NCBI GenBank assembly: GCA_028288625.1
Contig: JAQBNI010000110.1
Coordinates: 1 to 58,610, forward strand
Direction: 5' to 3'
Origin: Bacteroidota bacterium
GTDB taxonomy: Bacteria; Bacteroidota; Bacteroidia; Chitinophagales; JADIYW01
Length of the DNA stretch: 58,610 nucleotides
Part shown: positions 43,651-49,315 of the stretch, one piece after another
Numbering within the stretch: the stretch's first letter is position 1
Layout of the letters: each line of letters opens with the position of its first letter
Made by a program: the position numbers and the translations under genes
The notes under the pieces: generated by a model
What the model was told of the DNA's origin: nothing
The model's input: the letters and a program-made list of their open reading frames with translations, nothing else
The model's database searches: none

Positions 43651-44535
43651 ATGAAAAAACAATTTTACTTTTCCATTTTATTGGTTTTGGTGACGATCAC
43701 CGCATGTAAGAAATCCTCAACAAACGCAGTAACGGAAGGAACGTTTACGGCTTTAACTTATAATGTAGCTGGCTTACCGGAACCGGTTTCACAATCTCAT
43801 CCACTGGTAAATTCGCCGCAGATCAGTTCGCGCCTGAATAATTACGATATTGTAAACGTGCAGGAAGATTTTGGTTATGATAGTTTATTACGGCTGCATG
43901 AACATCATCCCTTTCAAAGCAAATATTTTGCAGGCACATCCTTAGGCGATGGATTGAATTTATTTTCGAGATTTTTATTTCTCGATTACATGCGAACTGC
44001 ATGGGTAGATTGCAATGGTACGGATTGTTATACGCCAAAAGGATTTACTTATTCACGCGTAAAACTTGCAGAACATGCTTACATAGATCTGTATGATGTG
44101 CATTGCAACGCAGGCTCGGATGTGCTCGACCTTGCAGCACGAAGAAAAAATATTCTGCAGATGTGCGCATACATTGATTACCGTTCGAAAGGTCATGCAG
44201 TAATTATTATGGGCGATACGAATACCCGCTATACAAGAACAGGCGACAATATCCGCGAAATACTAAATCGCGATTTTAAAGATGTATGGATCGAGCTGGA
44301 ACGCAATGGCGTAGTTCCAAACCAGGATGGAATTTCATTATCGGATTGCGATCCAACTTCTACTTATGCAAATTGCGAAGTGGTAGACAAAATATTTTAC
44401 AGGAGCAACGATGAAGTGAAACTTACACCGCTTGAATTTGCAATTCCCGGCGACCAGTTTTTAGATGCAAATGGCGAATGGCTTTCCGACCACAGACCGG
44501 TGTATGCAAAATTTAAATTCAACGTTTTAAAATAA
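43651..44535 (+). CDS. Endonuclease/exonuclease/phosphatase-family lipoprotein, copy 1
   Basis: 294 residues. Lipobox TITAC with Cys19, then KKSS. The EEP fold residues are visible: Asn38 (YNVAGLP), Glu72 (NVQEDF), His151 (YDVHCNAG), Asp189 and Asn191 (MGDTNT), and Asp280-His281 (SDHRPV). The superfamily includes DNases, sphingomyelinases and inositol phosphatases. Conserved cysteines (CNGTDC) suggest a disulfide and an extracytoplasmic site. First of three tandem paralogues. Whether it attacks nucleic acid or a phosphodiester lipid cannot be told. Confidence 0.8.
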   Translation: MKKQFYFSILLVLVTITACKKSSTNAVTEGTFTALTYNVAGLPEPVSQSHPLVNSPQISSRLNNYDIVNVQEDFGYDSLLRLHEHHPFQSKYFAGTSLGDGLNLFSRFLFLDYMRTAWVDCNGTDCYTPKGFTYSRVKLAEHAYIDLYDVHCNAGSDVLDLAARRKNILQMCAYIDYRSKGHAVIIMGDTNTRYTRTGDNIREILNRDFKDVWIELERNGVVPNQDGISLSDCDPTSTYANCEVVDKIFYRSNDEVKLTPLEFAIPGDQFLDANGEWLSDHRPVYAKFKFNVLK

Positions 44536-44560
44536 TTTATCCATTAGTTATGCTATAAGC

Positions 44561-45442
44561 ATGAGAAAGCATCTACTCCTTTTTACAAGTCTTGTTTTTA
44601 TTGTGATAACAGGCTGCAAGAAGCAGGCAGATGAAATTAAACATGGCACTTTCACTGCAATGACCTACAACATTGCAGGATTGCCGGAACCGATCTCCGG
44701 CTCACATCCCGCCATCAATACACCATTGATCGCTAAATTACTTAACGATTATGATGTAGTGAATGTCCAGGAAGATTTTAATTACGATCAACTCCTGAGA
44801 GCAAATGACCGGCATCCATTCAAAAGTAAATATGAAGCTAAAGTAAGTTTTGGGGATGGATTAAACCTGCTATCGAACTTTCCTTTTACCGACTTCGTAC
44901 GAACTCAATGGACTAAATGTGAAGGAACGGATTGCCTGACACCGAAAGGTTTCACTTATTCGAGATTGAATATTGCAGGCGATGTGTTTATAGATTTGTA
45001 TGATGTGCATTGCGATGCAGGAAGCACACCGGAAGGCTATGCCGCAAGAAAAAGCAATATATTGCAATTGGTGGCTTACATTGATGCACATTCACAGGGA
45101 CATGCAGTGATCATTATGGGCGACACCAATACCGAATATACGGAAACACAGGAAAACCCGCGCGAGATATTGAACCGCGGTTTTAAAGATGTGTGGGTGG
45201 AACTGATCAGGCATGGAATATTGCCCACGCAAAACGACAGCTCCCTGGATTGCGGCAATCTCGTAACAAACGAAGTAGATTGCGAAGAGCTTGATAAAAT
45301 ATTTTACAGGAGCAACGACGAGGTAAAATTAACCGCACTGGAATATGCAATCCCCGGAGATAAGTTTTTAGATGTGCGCAGGGAATGGCTTTCCGATCAC
45401 CGCCCTGTTTTCACGAAGTTTCAATTTGATATACTGAAATAA
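44561..45442 (+). CDS. Endonuclease/exonuclease/phosphatase-family lipoprotein, copy 2
   Basis: 293 residues, the same plan as its neighbours: lipobox VITGC, YNIAGLPEPISGSHP, NVQEDFNYD, DVHCDAG, MGDTNTEYT and SDHRPVFTKF. The active-site set is complete. It begins 25 bp after copy 1 and is very probably in the same transcript. The last ~60 residues (KIFYRSNDEVKLTALEYAIP) are nearly the same in all three. Confidence 0.8.
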   Translation: MRKHLLLFTSLVFIVITGCKKQADEIKHGTFTAMTYNIAGLPEPISGSHPAINTPLIAKLLNDYDVVNVQEDFNYDQLLRANDRHPFKSKYEAKVSFGDGLNLLSNFPFTDFVRTQWTKCEGTDCLTPKGFTYSRLNIAGDVFIDLYDVHCDAGSTPEGYAARKSNILQLVAYIDAHSQGHAVIIMGDTNTEYTETQENPREILNRGFKDVWVELIRHGILPTQNDSSLDCGNLVTNEVDCEELDKIFYRSNDEVKLTALEYAIPGDKFLDVRREWLSDHRPVFTKFQFDILK

Positions 45443-45549
45443 GTTTCCTAAGGGTGAATTTTGAATTGATAAAAGTCATAAAAGATTTGTCATTTACTTT
45501 TTGCCGATTGTCTGCTGTAACTTGCCGTCTCATTTTTTAATTCTTTGTC

Positions 45550-46428
45550 ATGAAAAGATATTTGATTTGCGTTCCTTTTATTTTATTGTTGACGAGCGGC
45601 TGCAAAAAATCAACTAACAGTATAAAGCAGGGAACATTCACAGTAATGACCTATAATATTGCCGGATTACCCGAGCCGGCTTCAGGTTCTCATCCCGCTA
45701 CCAATACATCCTTAATAAGCAAACGACTGAATGACTATGACATAGTAAATGTTCAGGAAGACTTTTTCTACGACAGCCTTTTATTGAAATATGATCATCA
45801 TCCTTATCGTGGAAAATATACAAGGGCGAGAAGTTTTGGTGATGGCTTAAATTTTTTATCAAAATTTCTTGTCCTGAATTTTATGCGAACAGAATGGGAA
45901 GATTGTCATGGCACGGATTGCTATACGCCTAAAGGTTTTACTTATTCACGGGTGAAACTTGCAGAAGGCGCTTACATAGATCTCTACAACTTACACTGCA
46001 ATGCAGGCGGCGATGCGCCCGATTATGCGGCTCGCAGAAATAATGTTTTGCAGTTGTGCAAGTACATTGAATTTCGTTCCAAAGGAAATGCAGTGATCAT
46101 TATGGGCGACACAAATACAGATTACACGTATTCGCAGGAAAATACGAGGGAGATCCTGAGCCACGGATTTACAGACGTATGGATCGAACTGGTAAGACAT
46201 GGAATATTACCGGTTCAAAATGATATACGGATTGGCTGTGGCGTGCACGCGATCAATGAAACGGATTGCGAGGAAGTAGATAAAATATTTTACAGGAGCA
46301 ACGATGTTGTAAAATTAACTGCACTGGAATATTCAATACCGGGTGGAGATTTTTTAGATGCTCACGGCGAATGGCTTTCCGATCATCGTCCTGTTTCAGC
46401 TAAATTTCAGTTTGATGTGCTGAAATAA
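45550..46428 (+). CDS. Endonuclease/exonuclease/phosphatase-family lipoprotein, copy 3
   Basis: 292 residues. Lipobox LTSGC, then KKSTN. YNIAGLPEPASGSHP, NVQEDFFYD, MGDTNTDYT and SDHRPVSAKF keep the catalytic pattern, but the His motif is NLHCNAG instead of DVHC. A 107-bp gap separates it from copy 2, so it may have its own promoter. It matches copy 1 in the CYTPKGFTYSRVKLAE segment and copy 2 in the C-terminal part. Confidence 0.8.
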   Translation: MKRYLICVPFILLLTSGCKKSTNSIKQGTFTVMTYNIAGLPEPASGSHPATNTSLISKRLNDYDIVNVQEDFFYDSLLLKYDHHPYRGKYTRARSFGDGLNFLSKFLVLNFMRTEWEDCHGTDCYTPKGFTYSRVKLAEGAYIDLYNLHCNAGGDAPDYAARRNNVLQLCKYIEFRSKGNAVIIMGDTNTDYTYSQENTREILSHGFTDVWIELVRHGILPVQNDIRIGCGVHAINETDCEEVDKIFYRSNDVVKLTALEYSIPGGDFLDAHGEWLSDHRPVSAKFQFDVLK

Positions 46429-46452: not shown

Positions 46453-46487
46453 GTTGACAATAATCTGTGAACTGTGATCGGTTAACC
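46453..46487 (-). repeat. Degenerate heptad array (family D-like) at the end of the murU-like gene
   Basis: Five units in 7-nt register: GTTGACA, a divergent unit, GTGAACT, GTGATCG, GTTAACC. It resembles the reverse complement of family D. It overlaps the stop codon at 46482. Confidence 0.55.
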
Positions 46488-47216
46488 CTTCCTCATGCTT
46501 CCAATGATCTCATTTGCTTTTGCAAGATCTGCTTCGGAGCCTATGTCGATCCAGATATCGCTGTCGTGGTGATATGCTTTGATGATATTTTCTTTGCAGA
46601 GATCGAGGTACCAGTCGACCATTGAAAAAGCACCGTTAAATTTATTGTTCTTAAATATCTCAGGTGAAATGATATGATAACCGCTGAACGCCAGCTGGTG
46701 CGTTCTTCCGGCAGGCTTGCGCGGCAACTTTACCTCATCCAATTTCGTATTTTTCCAACCACATAAAATATCGTCGTTATCAAATAATAAATAGCGTGAA
46801 GAATTCCTGTTACGCACGGCAAGTGTTGCCAGTGAATTATTTTTCAAATGTGTTTGGTAAAATTTTTGGAGATCTATATTTGTAAAAACATCTGCATTGC
46901 AAACCAGGAACGGCTTTCCATCATCAAAAAAATATTTTGCTTTCCACAAACCTCCACCTGTTTCCAGGATCTCATGCGATTCATCAGAAATTTCAATTCG
47001 CATCCCAAAATAATTTTGCTGTTTTAAAAATGCTTTTATCTGATCTCCGAGATAATGTATGTTAATGATCAATTCATCGAATCCGTAATACTTTAATTGT
47101 TCTATCACAATCTGCAGGATGGGCTTTCCACCCAATGGAATCAGGGCTTTCGGACAATTGTTGGTCAGCGGTCGAAGCCGTGTACCAATCCCTGCTGCAA
47201 AGATCATTGCCTTCAT
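46482..47216 (-). CDS. MurU-like sugar-1-phosphate nucleotidyltransferase
   Basis: 244 residues. The nucleotide-binding start FAAGIGTRLRPLT, then CPKALIPLGGKPIL, and the metal aspartate in VCNADVFTN mark the NTP-transferase family. Next to an AmgK-like kinase, the best assignment is MurNAc-1-phosphate uridylyltransferase (MurU) or a GlcNAc-1-phosphate version, which recycles cell-wall sugars to UDP-sugar. A mannose-1-phosphate guanylyltransferase is the alternative. An octad array occupies its leader. Confidence 0.8.
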   Translation of the reverse strand: MKAMIFAAGIGTRLRPLTNNCPKALIPLGGKPILQIVIEQLKYYGFDELIINIHYLGDQIKAFLKQQNYFGMRIEISDESHEILETGGGLWKAKYFFDDGKPFLVCNADVFTNIDLQKFYQTHLKNNSLATLAVRNRNSSRYLLFDNDDILCGWKNTKLDEVKLPRKPAGRTHQLAFSGYHIISPEIFKNNKFNGAFSMVDWYLDLCKENIIKAYHHDSDIWIDIGSEADLAKANEIIGSMRKG

Positions 47217-47254: not shown

Positions 47255-47839
47255 CTAGTTTACTAATACTGAATCTAATTTTTTAAAGAAAATAACAATG
47301 TCTTCTAATAAGCAATCTAAAAATTCTTTGTTAATTTTTATTTGCCGAAATAAACCATAATCATTATAATCTAAATTAATAATGTTTGTTTTAATTTTAT
47401 CAAACTCATTCTTTTCAATGTCACCATCTGCATGCACAATCTTATTTCGAATCTCAGAATAAAACATTATTTTATTTAGTTCAACATTTAATGGTTCCAT
47501 TCTGATTTTATGCACCTTCTCAATATATAGTTTCGCTCTTAAAATACCTCTTCCTCTTAAATCCTTTATGTCAACATCATATTTATTTTCGTGTTTTATA
47601 CTATTGCACATTTCGTTTAAATTATGTTCAACAAATGACATAATAGAAATAAAGGTAGATCGGTAAAATAATCTTGTATATTCCCAACGTAAACTTTGAA
47701 ACTCATCAGAATCTACTCCGTATATATCAGCTGCAACTTTATACTTCTGTTCAATAAACTTATTGAGATCACTTAAATAATCTTTGAATGTCTCTATCTC
47801 AAACTCAAATAAAAAACTTAAGTAATTAGTTGTTTGCAT
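47255..47839 (-). CDS. HEPN-like protein inserted between kinase and nucleotidyltransferase genes
   Basis: 194 residues, mostly helical. The RNKIVH motif (Arg131 to His136) fits the HEPN R-x4-H active site, and SIMSFVEHNLNEMC (about 66-78) resembles the preceding HEPN helix. HEPN proteins with this motif are often metal-independent RNases in defence or stress systems, though some are only binding proteins. Base composition is visibly more AT-rich than both neighbours. Its ATG lies 3 bp after the kinase stop and its stop 38 bp before the next gene, so it shares their transcript. No specific HEPN subfamily can be named. Confidence 0.55.
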   Translation of the reverse strand: MQTTNYLSFLFEFEIETFKDYLSDLNKFIEQKYKVAADIYGVDSDEFQSLRWEYTRLFYRSTFISIMSFVEHNLNEMCNSIKHENKYDVDIKDLRGRGILRAKLYIEKVHKIRMEPLNVELNKIMFYSEIRNKIVHADGDIEKNEFDKIKTNIINLDYNDYGLFRQIKINKEFLDCLLEDIVIFFKKLDSVLVN

Positions 47840-47842
47840 ATT

Positions 47843-49315
47843 TCAAATTATTTTCCCTTGTAATTCGCGTTCAATATGTCGAAGTTGTACCGGTATGCGA
47901 TATTTTTCAGTGATATATTTTGCAGTCTGTTCCGCGCAATAAACGCTCCTGTGCTGTCCGCCCGTACAACCGAAATTGATTTGCAAGTGTTCAAAATCAC
48001 GCTGCAGATAATCCTGTATATTAATATCGATCACCTTATAAACGCTTTCTAAAAATTCCTTCACCTTGCTGCGCGCTTCCAGGAACTCGATCACAGACGC
48101 ATCCTTTCCTGTAAACTCTTTATACGGGTCATACCTTCCCGGGTTGTGCAATCCGCGACAGTCAAAAACAAAACCGCCGCCGTTGCCATGTGTATCTTCA
48201 GGAATACTTCTCCTGTAAGAAAAACTATTGACTTCAACTTTTAATTTTTTATCCGCATTATTATTCCAAACTTGCGTTGCAGTTTCTTTCTCGTCCAACT
48301 TTTCAGCTTCTGCAATATTCAGGAAGTCTGCCTGGCACAGTTGGTGCAGTACATTATATAATTCCGGTAGCTCAATCTTTAAATTTACATTTGCGAGGAA
48401 CCACCGGATATTTTCTATCGCAGGAAGTATACTTTCTATAAAGTGTGTGCGTTTTTCTATCAACCCGCGAAAACCATATGCGCCGAGTACCTGCAGCATC
48501 CTGATCAGCACAAATGCATAATAGCGGTCTTTAAAATCCTGCTTGTCTATCTCAATTAACGATTCAACTTTTTCCGTATAAAAATCAAAAAGCTGGTCGC
48601 GCAATGCATAAGGAATTTTTGCGCCTGCCTGCCACAACAACGAAGCGGCGTCATATTGCAACGGACCTTTTCTTCCCCCCTGGTAATCGATAAAAAATAT
48701 TTTTTCGTCGTGTATCATCACATTCCTCGACTGGCAATCACGGTACATGAAGTATAGATTTTTTTCCTGGAGGAGATAATCACACAACCAATGAAAATCT
48801 TTATTCAGTTTTACTTCGCTGAATTGCGCTCTTGCTATTCGTGCGAAATAATATTTGAAGCTATTCAGATCCCAGAACATGGAACTCCTGTTGAACTTGG
48901 AGATCGGGTAGCAAGAAGCAAAATCAAAATTCTCCGCTCCTTTTATCTGCAGGAATGCGAGTTGATGAAGCACTTCCCGGAGATACAATTTCACTTCATC
49001 CGAAATTCCATGCGTCTTAATTAACGAATACAAAGAAACATCTCCGAGATCCTGCTGCAGATAATATTGCTTGTCGTTGCTTACTGCATAGATCTGCGGG
49101 ACTGCGATTTCTTTCTGGTGAAAATGGCGTGTGTGATGAATGAAGGTTTCATTTTCCTTCGTGTCCTTGCCATAAGTACCGATAGCTGAATTTGCAGCAC
49201 TGTGTAAACGGTAATAGATGCGGTCGGAACCCGATTGCGGCAATTTCAATATACTCTGACAATCTTCTTTAAAATATTGCTGAAATAATTGTTGTAGCGC
49301 TTCATCGTGTTGCAT
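47843..49315 (-). CDS. AmgK-like sugar kinase fused to a RapZ C-terminal domain
   Basis: 490 residues in two parts. Residues 1-340 are an aminoglycoside phosphotransferase-fold kinase: the catalytic loop YRDCQSRNVM (Asp193, Asn198) and IDYQGGRKGPLQYD (metal Asp210) match AmgK, which phosphorylates the anomeric position of MurNAc or GlcNAc; the usual His before Arg-Asp is Tyr here. Residues about 355-485 are the RapZ C-terminal domain (FDCRGLHNPGRYD, GCTGGQHRSVYCAEQ), which in enterobacteria senses glucosamine-6-phosphate. The RapZ P-loop half is absent. The murU-like gene downstream supports cell-wall sugar recycling. Confidence 0.82.
   Translation of the reverse strand: MQHDEALQQLFQQYFKEDCQSILKLPQSGSDRIYYRLHSAANSAIGTYGKDTKENETFIHHTRHFHQKEIAVPQIYAVSNDKQYYLQQDLGDVSLYSLIKTHGISDEVKLYLREVLHQLAFLQIKGAENFDFASCYPISKFNRSSMFWDLNSFKYYFARIARAQFSEVKLNKDFHWLCDYLLQEKNLYFMYRDCQSRNVMIHDEKIFFIDYQGGRKGPLQYDAASLLWQAGAKIPYALRDQLFDFYTEKVESLIEIDKQDFKDRYYAFVLIRMLQVLGAYGFRGLIEKRTHFIESILPAIENIRWFLANVNLKIELPELYNVLHQLCQADFLNIAEAEKLDEKETATQVWNNNADKKLKVEVNSFSYRRSIPEDTHGNGGGFVFDCRGLHNPGRYDPYKEFTGKDASVIEFLEARSKVKEFLESVYKVIDINIQDYLQRDFEHLQINFGCTGGQHRSVYCAEQTAKYITEKYRIPVQLRHIERELQGKII

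Follow-up and report, generated by a model that had tools for sequence, protein, structure and literature searches.

A RapZ-type C-terminal domain fused to an AmgK-like kinase in a presumed MurNAc-salvage set of Bacteroidota

Described systems and the architecture of the fusion

Salvage of MurNAc along the AnmK - MupP - AmgK - MurU route requires a MurNAc-6P phosphatase, and MupP was found via its co-occurrence with AmgK and MurU (PMC5371407). Pseudomonas is described as lacking MurQ (PMC5371407), and a MupP homologue has been reported in Caulobacter (PMC13046382). Among the Bacteroidota, AmgK and MurU of Tannerella forsythia are a salvage pair that has been used experimentally in E. coli (PMC13041923). 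The second system to be compared is RapZ (YhbJ/YvcJ), which in E. coli binds GlcN6P with a KD of 186 nM and shows no response to GlcN or Glc6P (PMC7073468). In its C-terminal domain (CTD), malonate or sulphate is bound by the loop backbone at T248 and G249 together with the H190, H252, and R253 side chains (PMC5737377), and this pocket is also where the domain touches GlmZ (PMC9841335).

The window analysed here, i.e. the whole stretch of 58,610 nucleotides, carries on its minus strand a single ORF with an ATG start (47843-49315; 490 aa; GC 40.9%) that joins an AmgK-like kinase to a RapZ CTD. Pfam profiles place APH at residues 56-247 (35.5 bits, cut-off 23.2) and PapZ_C, the RapZ C-terminal domain, at residues 358-481 (112.8 bits, cut-off 27), bearing out a first-pass annotation that had described such a kinase fused to a RapZ CTD with the motif GCTGGQHRSV. 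Beyond these two families, no Pfam family was detected in the fusion at E≤0.001, and it contains no HAD-family (MupP-type) domain. The AF2/AlphaFold model of the full protein has a mean pLDDT of 89.8 and a pTM of 0.68; pLDDT falls under 50 at residues 335-355, around the interdomain linker (residues 336-355; 48251-48310, minus strand), a stretch predicted to be disordered, so that the model does not fix how the two domains sit relative to each other. As in the AmgK/MurU/MupP pathway of Pseudomonas and Caulobacter, a presumed anomeric kinase and a uridylyltransferase occur as partners, and the source genome likewise has AnmK and no MurQ. In contrast to that pathway, the kinase carries a RapZ CTD, the source genome has no match to the MupP model at E≤1e-20, and both the kinase and the MurU-like protein score far below the NCBIfam equivalog cut-offs.

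For the kinase domain (residues 1-335; 48311-49315, minus strand), the closest solved structure to the model is 3csv (Z 29.1, rmsd 2.7, 310 aligned, 19% identity), by its record title a putative aminoglycoside phosphotransferase of Silicibacter sp. TM1040, which has 322 residues and no CTD. N-acetylhexosamine 1-kinase 4ocj (Z 20.3) as well as choline and other small-molecule kinases also match the fold. The catalytic Asp, Asn, and metal Asp of APH-type kinases (D193, N198, D210) are present, and the domain is probably catalytically active, since 47 aligned sequences all keep R192, D193, N198, and D210; R197 of the catalytic loop Y191-R192-D193-C-Q-S-R197-N198 (48722-48745, minus strand) is conserved in at least 90% of them. 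We call the kinase AmgK-like only, because its NCBIfam AmgK scores of 46.5 and 27.5 bits do not reach the equivalog cut-offs of 550 and 500. The Tyr that had been pointed out in place of the AmgK His before Arg-Asp is indeed there (Tyr191) but uninformative: among the 80 best-matching of 592 relatives from the genome collection, which were retrieved with the patterns FGCTGGQH and GGG[FY]VFDC and whose motif counts are therefore biased, this residue is Tyr in 46, Phe in 29, and His in 2, with the pattern unmatched in 3. Tyr or Phe thus being the norm in this set, Tyr191 was ruled out as the mark of a dead or unusual kinase.

The MurU-like sugar-1-phosphate nucleotidylyltransferase (46482-47216, minus strand; 244 aa; GC 39.5%) matches Pfam NTP_transferase, and NCBIfam MurU is the best of its 44 matches (148.3 bits, below the equivalog cut-off of 250). 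Its gene had been described as lying beside the fusion; it is part of the locus but not directly adjacent, an ORF of 194 aa in between (47255-47839, minus strand) having been overlooked. This ORF begins three bases past the fusion stop codon, has a GC content of 25.5% where both flanking genes are near 40%, and shows at most 36% identity to hypothetical plasmid proteins. At E≤1e-4 it has no counterpart in the 53 other CTD loci, and Pfam gives nothing at E≤1. These features suggest that it was inserted into the operon, and it is probably outside the salvage pathway. Its sole PADLOC match is to a HEPN model (E 0.055), and it contains the string Arg-Asn-Lys-Ile-Val-His, which we take to be HEPN-like. 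On the plus strand at 43651-46428 are three similar tandem genes (292-294 aa) with lipoprotein-like products, the first matching the endonuclease/exonuclease/phosphatase family in Pfam and the other two by eye; according to its annotation, Parabacteroides distasonis also has a gene of this family after the nucleotidyltransferase gene.

Co-occurrence of the CTD with kinase and MurU

To determine the distribution of the CTD, 392 genomes sampled from the phylum were searched with Pfam PF22740, and the neighbourhoods of all positives were examined. The CTD was found in 54 of the 392 Bacteroidota genomes, always in one copy, with kinase and CTD fused in 40, encoded by neighbouring genes in 8, and apart in 6. 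Eight of the 14 genomes with a separate CTD have consecutive kinase, CTD, and MurU genes in that order; in another (G325) the CTD adjoins MurU with the kinase elsewhere, and in five (G180, G271, G306, G380, G384) neither kinase nor MurU lies beside the CTD. A kinase-domain profile matched 120 of the 392 genomes at E≤1e-15. Strong matches (E below 1e-76) were obtained in 55 genomes, namely all 54 CTD genomes and G009, and weaker ones (E 8e-31 to 2e-46) in 65 genomes without CTD, all of family f19. In two genomes of this distant kinase branch that were tested (G010, G044), no MurU was found. G009 has kinase and MurU adjacent (C44:46092-47785) and no CTD, and both AnmK and MurQ are absent from it.

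MurU is present in all 54 CTD genomes, in the same fetched locus in 42 (33/40 fused, 9/14 separate) and elsewhere in 12, and a MurU profile matched 0/9 control genomes. In the five genomes with an unlinked CTD, MurU scores are lower (185-228 bits) and three of the genes read through one stop codon. Whether the fusion is generally kept together with murU had been raised as a point on which the first-pass annotation could fail; it is, given that 33 of the 40 fused genomes have MurU at the locus and the other seven have it elsewhere. In a second sample, direct adjacency was less strict: the best 80 of 592 relatives are all fused, and of the 75 among them with over 900 bases downstream, 43 have a MurU gene no more than 500 bases away in the same orientation. 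Of the 32 such loci without adjacent MurU, 19 in named genomes were tested, and MurU was found elsewhere in 18 (exception G399).

These data indicate that the kinase-CTD fusion is genuine and no assembly accident, because 40 of 54 CTD genomes (392 sampled) and the best 80 of 592 relatives have it, and that it is nothing unusual in its lineage and no peculiarity of the source genome. As all 54 CTD genomes carry kinase and MurU whatever the linkage, profile matches and gene content place the CTD in the presumed MurNAc-salvage set, fused or not. The possibility that stand-alone CTDs form a different system was ruled out, kinase and MurU being found elsewhere in the same genomes. We thus see a conserved fusion of two domains within what is presumably a MurNAc-salvage set, undescribed as such in the literature searched: neither an AmgK-RapZ fusion nor a Bacteroidota kinase-RapZ fusion was found described in that search, which lay mostly outside subscription journals.

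Among the named relatives are assemblies of Bacteroidota, Ignavibacteria, Calditrichia, Neomarinimicrobiota, and Delongbacteria. Most are metagenome bins, and the label Williamsia on one of them (L175) may be wrong. Three relatives (L084, L085, L096) were labelled fused or separate by length, and kinase and CTD were then confirmed in each. Behind the stand-alone CTD gene, four genomes belonging to a single genus (f48) have similar transporter-like genes (L180, 17273-18550, minus strand; L069, L074, L075, L181). The one scanned matches MFS_1 and the others were judged by eye; they may encode an importer of sugars or muropeptides. In three genomes from a single genus, about 8 to 16 kb separate the CTD and AnmK genes, and in G005 about 11 kb. 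This positional link was dropped as evidence, since the intervening genes look unrelated by eye (G271, G384).

Loop, pocket and RNA-contacting residues of the CTD

Modelled alone, the CTD (residues 356-490; 47846-48250, minus strand) reached a pLDDT of 90.6 and a pTM of 0.87, and its model matched solved structures with Z about 20: 8b0j_A scored 20.1, and 5o5s, the E. coli RapZ CTD, scored 19.9 with an rmsd of 1.5 across 123 residues. In the model, the GCTGGQHRSV loop (residues 449-458; 47942-47971, minus strand), which runs from C450 to R456-S457, lies between strand 443-450 and helix 456-472. Model and alignment together thus reveal a Cys-X5-Arg-Ser/Thr loop between strand and helix, as in Cys-dependent phosphatases. 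For the alignment, 43 fused and 14 separate Bacteroidota-type CTDs (57) were combined with 10 RapZ sequences, with rows chosen by the filter G.TGG.H[RK]S, which leaves the Cys free and allows Arg or Lys but partly requires other loop letters. All 57 Bacteroidota-type loci passed this filter, and one of 11 RapZ sequences (L091, Fusobacterium, loop GCSGGQHRS) was dropped; it retains the loop Cys, Arg, and Ser, with Thr248 changed to Ser. Cys247, Arg253, and Ser254 (E. coli numbering throughout this section unless residues of the fusion are named) are present in 67/67 aligned CTDs, and Val255, D182, R184, N188, P189, G200, and H276 are identical in all of them, so that the loop, Asp182, Arg184, Asn188, and His276 are shared with RapZ. 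The sole relative with His for the loop Arg (L106, GCTGGQHHS) among the best 80 of 592 carries it near position 1355 of a short metagenome contig, as a real change or an error.

Despite these likenesses, the Bacteroidota-type protein, judged by its sequence, is not RapZ, because the ATPase half is absent, the RNA-binding residues are mostly lost, and the position of His190 is Gly in 57/57. The P-loop ATPase half that forms the N-terminal part of RapZ is replaced by APH according to Pfam, and NCBIfam RapZ matches the fusion over profile positions 143-275 only (104.5 bits, cut-off 244). A five-residue insertion (residues 375-379 of the fusion) adds the motif NGGG (residues 378-381; 48173-48184, minus strand), with G379-G381 in 57/57 and N378 in 54/57 Bacteroidota-type CTDs, whereas columns 375-379 are gaps in 10/10 RapZ sequences aligned. 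In a CTD tree, the Bacteroidota-type domain falls on one side and the 10 RapZ on the other (100/99 support). The separate state needs three changes on this tree, and well supported branches force only one of them.

The residue comparison bears on three ways in which the CTD could act. Action on RNA had been put forward as an option, and a retained RapZ-like role in controlling an mRNA of amino-sugar metabolism would be in line with the homology to the GlmZ-contacting domain (PMC9841335) and with RNA-contacting positions that stay basic (K170 in 54/57, R184 in 57/57, R196 in 51/57 Bacteroidota-type CTDs). Others do not, with basic residues at R238 in 0/57, K251 in 1/57, R211 in 6/57, and K194 in 12/57. 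Joint change of K270, K281, R282, and K283 abolishes RNA binding by RapZ, whose RNA-binding part is reported as restricted to Enterobacteriaceae (PMC7073468). At these four RapZquad positions, Lys or Arg occurs in 0, 12, 17, and 1 of 57 Bacteroidota-type CTDs, and the source fusion has I474, L485, Q486, and G487, although the positions vary in RapZ as well (Lys or Arg in 2, 8, 6, and 3 of 10). On this residue conservation, and with the RapZ ATPase half absent, we set an RNA-directed role aside as very unlikely.

The CTD could also be mainly a dimerisation or stabilising module of the kinase, with no needed chemistry of its own. The RapZ CTD self-associates via the strand YVFD (PMC5737377), and Phe384 and Asp385 of the matching strand in the fusion are invariant in the family, but this interface is no more invariant than the residues of pocket and loop, and the CTD persists as an unlinked gene, so that we consider this improbable.

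A serious competitor, the main reading of the first-pass annotation and in our view nearly as likely as the phosphatase discussed below, is a sugar-phosphate sensor, with GlcN6P perhaps as ligand, that would switch the salvage kinase according to de novo precursor supply. It has a direct precedent in GlcN6P binding by E. coli RapZ (PMC7073468), and T248, G249, H252, and R253 of the RapZ pocket are retained in the CTD; the CTD is also kept where AnmK is missing (18 genomes) and a MurNAc-6P phosphatase would have nothing obvious to act on. The fifth pocket residue, His190, is not retained. It is among the pocket residues reported as essential for E. coli RapZ, and its substitution abolishes activity (PMC9841335). 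Since it is Gly in 57/57 and the insertion makes NGGG, the ligand has probably changed, though His190 varies in RapZ too, where it is Tyr or Phe in 2/10. Sensing of GlcN6P, which had been presupposed for this domain, is therefore not established. The invariant Cys is not obviously needed by a pure sensor. Control of the kinase by the CTD within one chain is not obligatory either, as the two are encoded apart in 6/54 genomes and control in trans would be needed there.

A candidate MurNAc-6P phosphatase

Our preferred reading, to which we assign a probability of roughly 0.4, is that the fusion is a two-headed MurNAc-salvage enzyme in which the CTD would dephosphorylate MurNAc-6P for the kinase. 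That the CTD itself may be catalytic was absent from the first-pass annotation. The AmgK-type kinase domain would phosphorylate the anomeric oxygen of MurNAc and probably of GlcNAc too, a step for which fold, catalytic residues, and partner gene are in evidence and the activity is presumed, and the MurU-like enzyme would convert the 1-phosphate to UDP-MurNAc. The CTD would be a Cys-dependent sugar-6-phosphate phosphatase, with Cys450 attacking a phosphate gripped by the loop backbone, Arg456, and His455. MurNAc freed in this way from AnmK-made MurNAc-6P would be handed to the attached kinase, or in trans to a kinase encoded by a separate gene. The domain would stand in for MupP of Pseudomonas, an unrelated HAD enzyme, and would be at most its functional replacement; an additional regulatory role beside the phosphatase may exist.

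We took a pathway census of 80 genomes, consisting of the 54 with CTD, G009, and 25 without CTD and without strong kinase. MurQ was called above 240 bits; everything that scored lower stayed at or below 46 bits and was mostly long GlmS-like frames, and 6 of 45 MurQ calls fall under the curated cut-off. AnmK was found in 36/54 CTD genomes (in G216 as a fragment at a contig end), 0/1 (G009), and 22/25 genomes with neither, and MurQ in 22/54, 0/1, and 23/25, respectively. AnmK without MurQ occurred in 18/36 AnmK-positive CTD genomes (7 families) compared to 0/22 AnmK-positive genomes without CTD (Fisher 2.3e-5, kinship ignored), and with the strict MurQ cut-off in 21/36 compared to 3/22 (Fisher 9e-4). 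The source genome is one of the 18. Conversely, 18/54 CTD genomes have no AnmK, and 4 of these have MurQ.

In none of 34 genomes did a protein exceed the cut-off of the MupP model (NF009696). With the threshold at E≤1e-20, matches to this model occurred in 1/18 AnmK-positive, MurQ-negative CTD genomes (G087), 2/9 AnmK-less kinase genomes, and 2/7 controls. In the 17/18 without such a match, gene content suggests that AnmK would make MurNAc-6P with neither MurQ nor a recognised MupP, and with the CTD present. An unrecognised HAD MupP doing the phosphatase step is possible, because relatives detected by the HAD phosphoglycolate phosphatase model (NF009695) occur in 34/34 genomes and the Caulobacter protein falls under the MupP model cut-off.

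The census also bears on whether the kinase and the MurU-like enzyme might act on another sugar, e.g. of capsule or glycoproteins, with no MurNAc salvage. NCBIfam AmgK and MurU scores far under their cut-offs and a kinase fold shared with N-acetylhexosamine, choline, and other small-molecule kinases would fit this. However, MurU is the top-scoring named family for the nucleotidyltransferase, and at the looser MurQ threshold AnmK without MurQ is found only in genomes with the kinase-CTD-MurU set, which leaves another sugar unlikely in our judgement.

A phosphatase is consistent with the presence of strong kinase and MurU in every CTD genome, with the varying linkage of kinase and CTD (40 fused, 8 neighbouring, 6 apart), with the loop Cys, Arg, and Ser in 67/67 CTDs and in the Fusobacterium RapZ, and with the confinement of AnmK without MurQ to CTD genomes at the looser threshold. 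In addition, the CTD is under tighter constraint than the kinase (26/135 versus 33/335 invariant columns in 47 sequences). Against a phosphatase, the supply of MurNAc-6P is unexplained in the 18/54 CTD genomes without AnmK, MurQ occurs together with the CTD in 22/54, and an unrecognised HAD MupP is possible. Furthermore, there is no obvious general acid (Asp405 of the fusion is Asn in 2/43 fused proteins), and the His for the loop Arg in one of the best 80 of 592 relatives, from a metagenome assembly, would not fit. The fold is RapZ- and phosphofructokinase-like, with phosphofructokinase at up to Z 7.1 in the fold search and a single tyrosine phosphatase (3s4o) at Z 5.6, a noise level that excludes nothing.

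The report numbered PMC7199280 is presumably Khan and Gorke 2020. It saw in the E. coli RapZ pocket a likeness to the phosphatase loop found in Cys-dependent tyrosine phosphatases, and it proposed GlcN6P hydrolysis, so that the phosphatase-loop idea for RapZ is already in print and priority lies there, the pathway context being what is new here (PMC7199280). Further leads from E. coli RapZ are that C247S inactivates the protein and that a CTD crystal with GlcN6P likely holds a transformed product (PMC9841335), although the GlcN6P-specific binding fits sensing equally well (PMC7073468). It is conceivable, and we put it forward tentatively, that the RapZ CTD is at root a sugar-6-phosphate phosphatase, with the Bacteroidota fusion a MurNAc-6P phosphatase that replaces MupP without homology and proteobacterial RapZ derived from a salvage enzyme that took up sensing and RNA binding. 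We know of no pathway that has been proposed for ligand hydrolysis by the RapZ CTD. For the original function of this widespread domain, the lineage bound to kinase and MurU offers one that can be tested with one purified protein, and the census exposes a gap in how AnmK-positive, MurQ-negative Bacteroidota could recycle MurNAc. The comparison also corrects an annotation: WP_005858754.1 of Parabacteroides distasonis is named 'RNase adapter RapZ', and we confirmed in it kinase and CTD, with the kinase replacing the ATPase half, so that this kinase-CTD fusion is misnamed RapZ.
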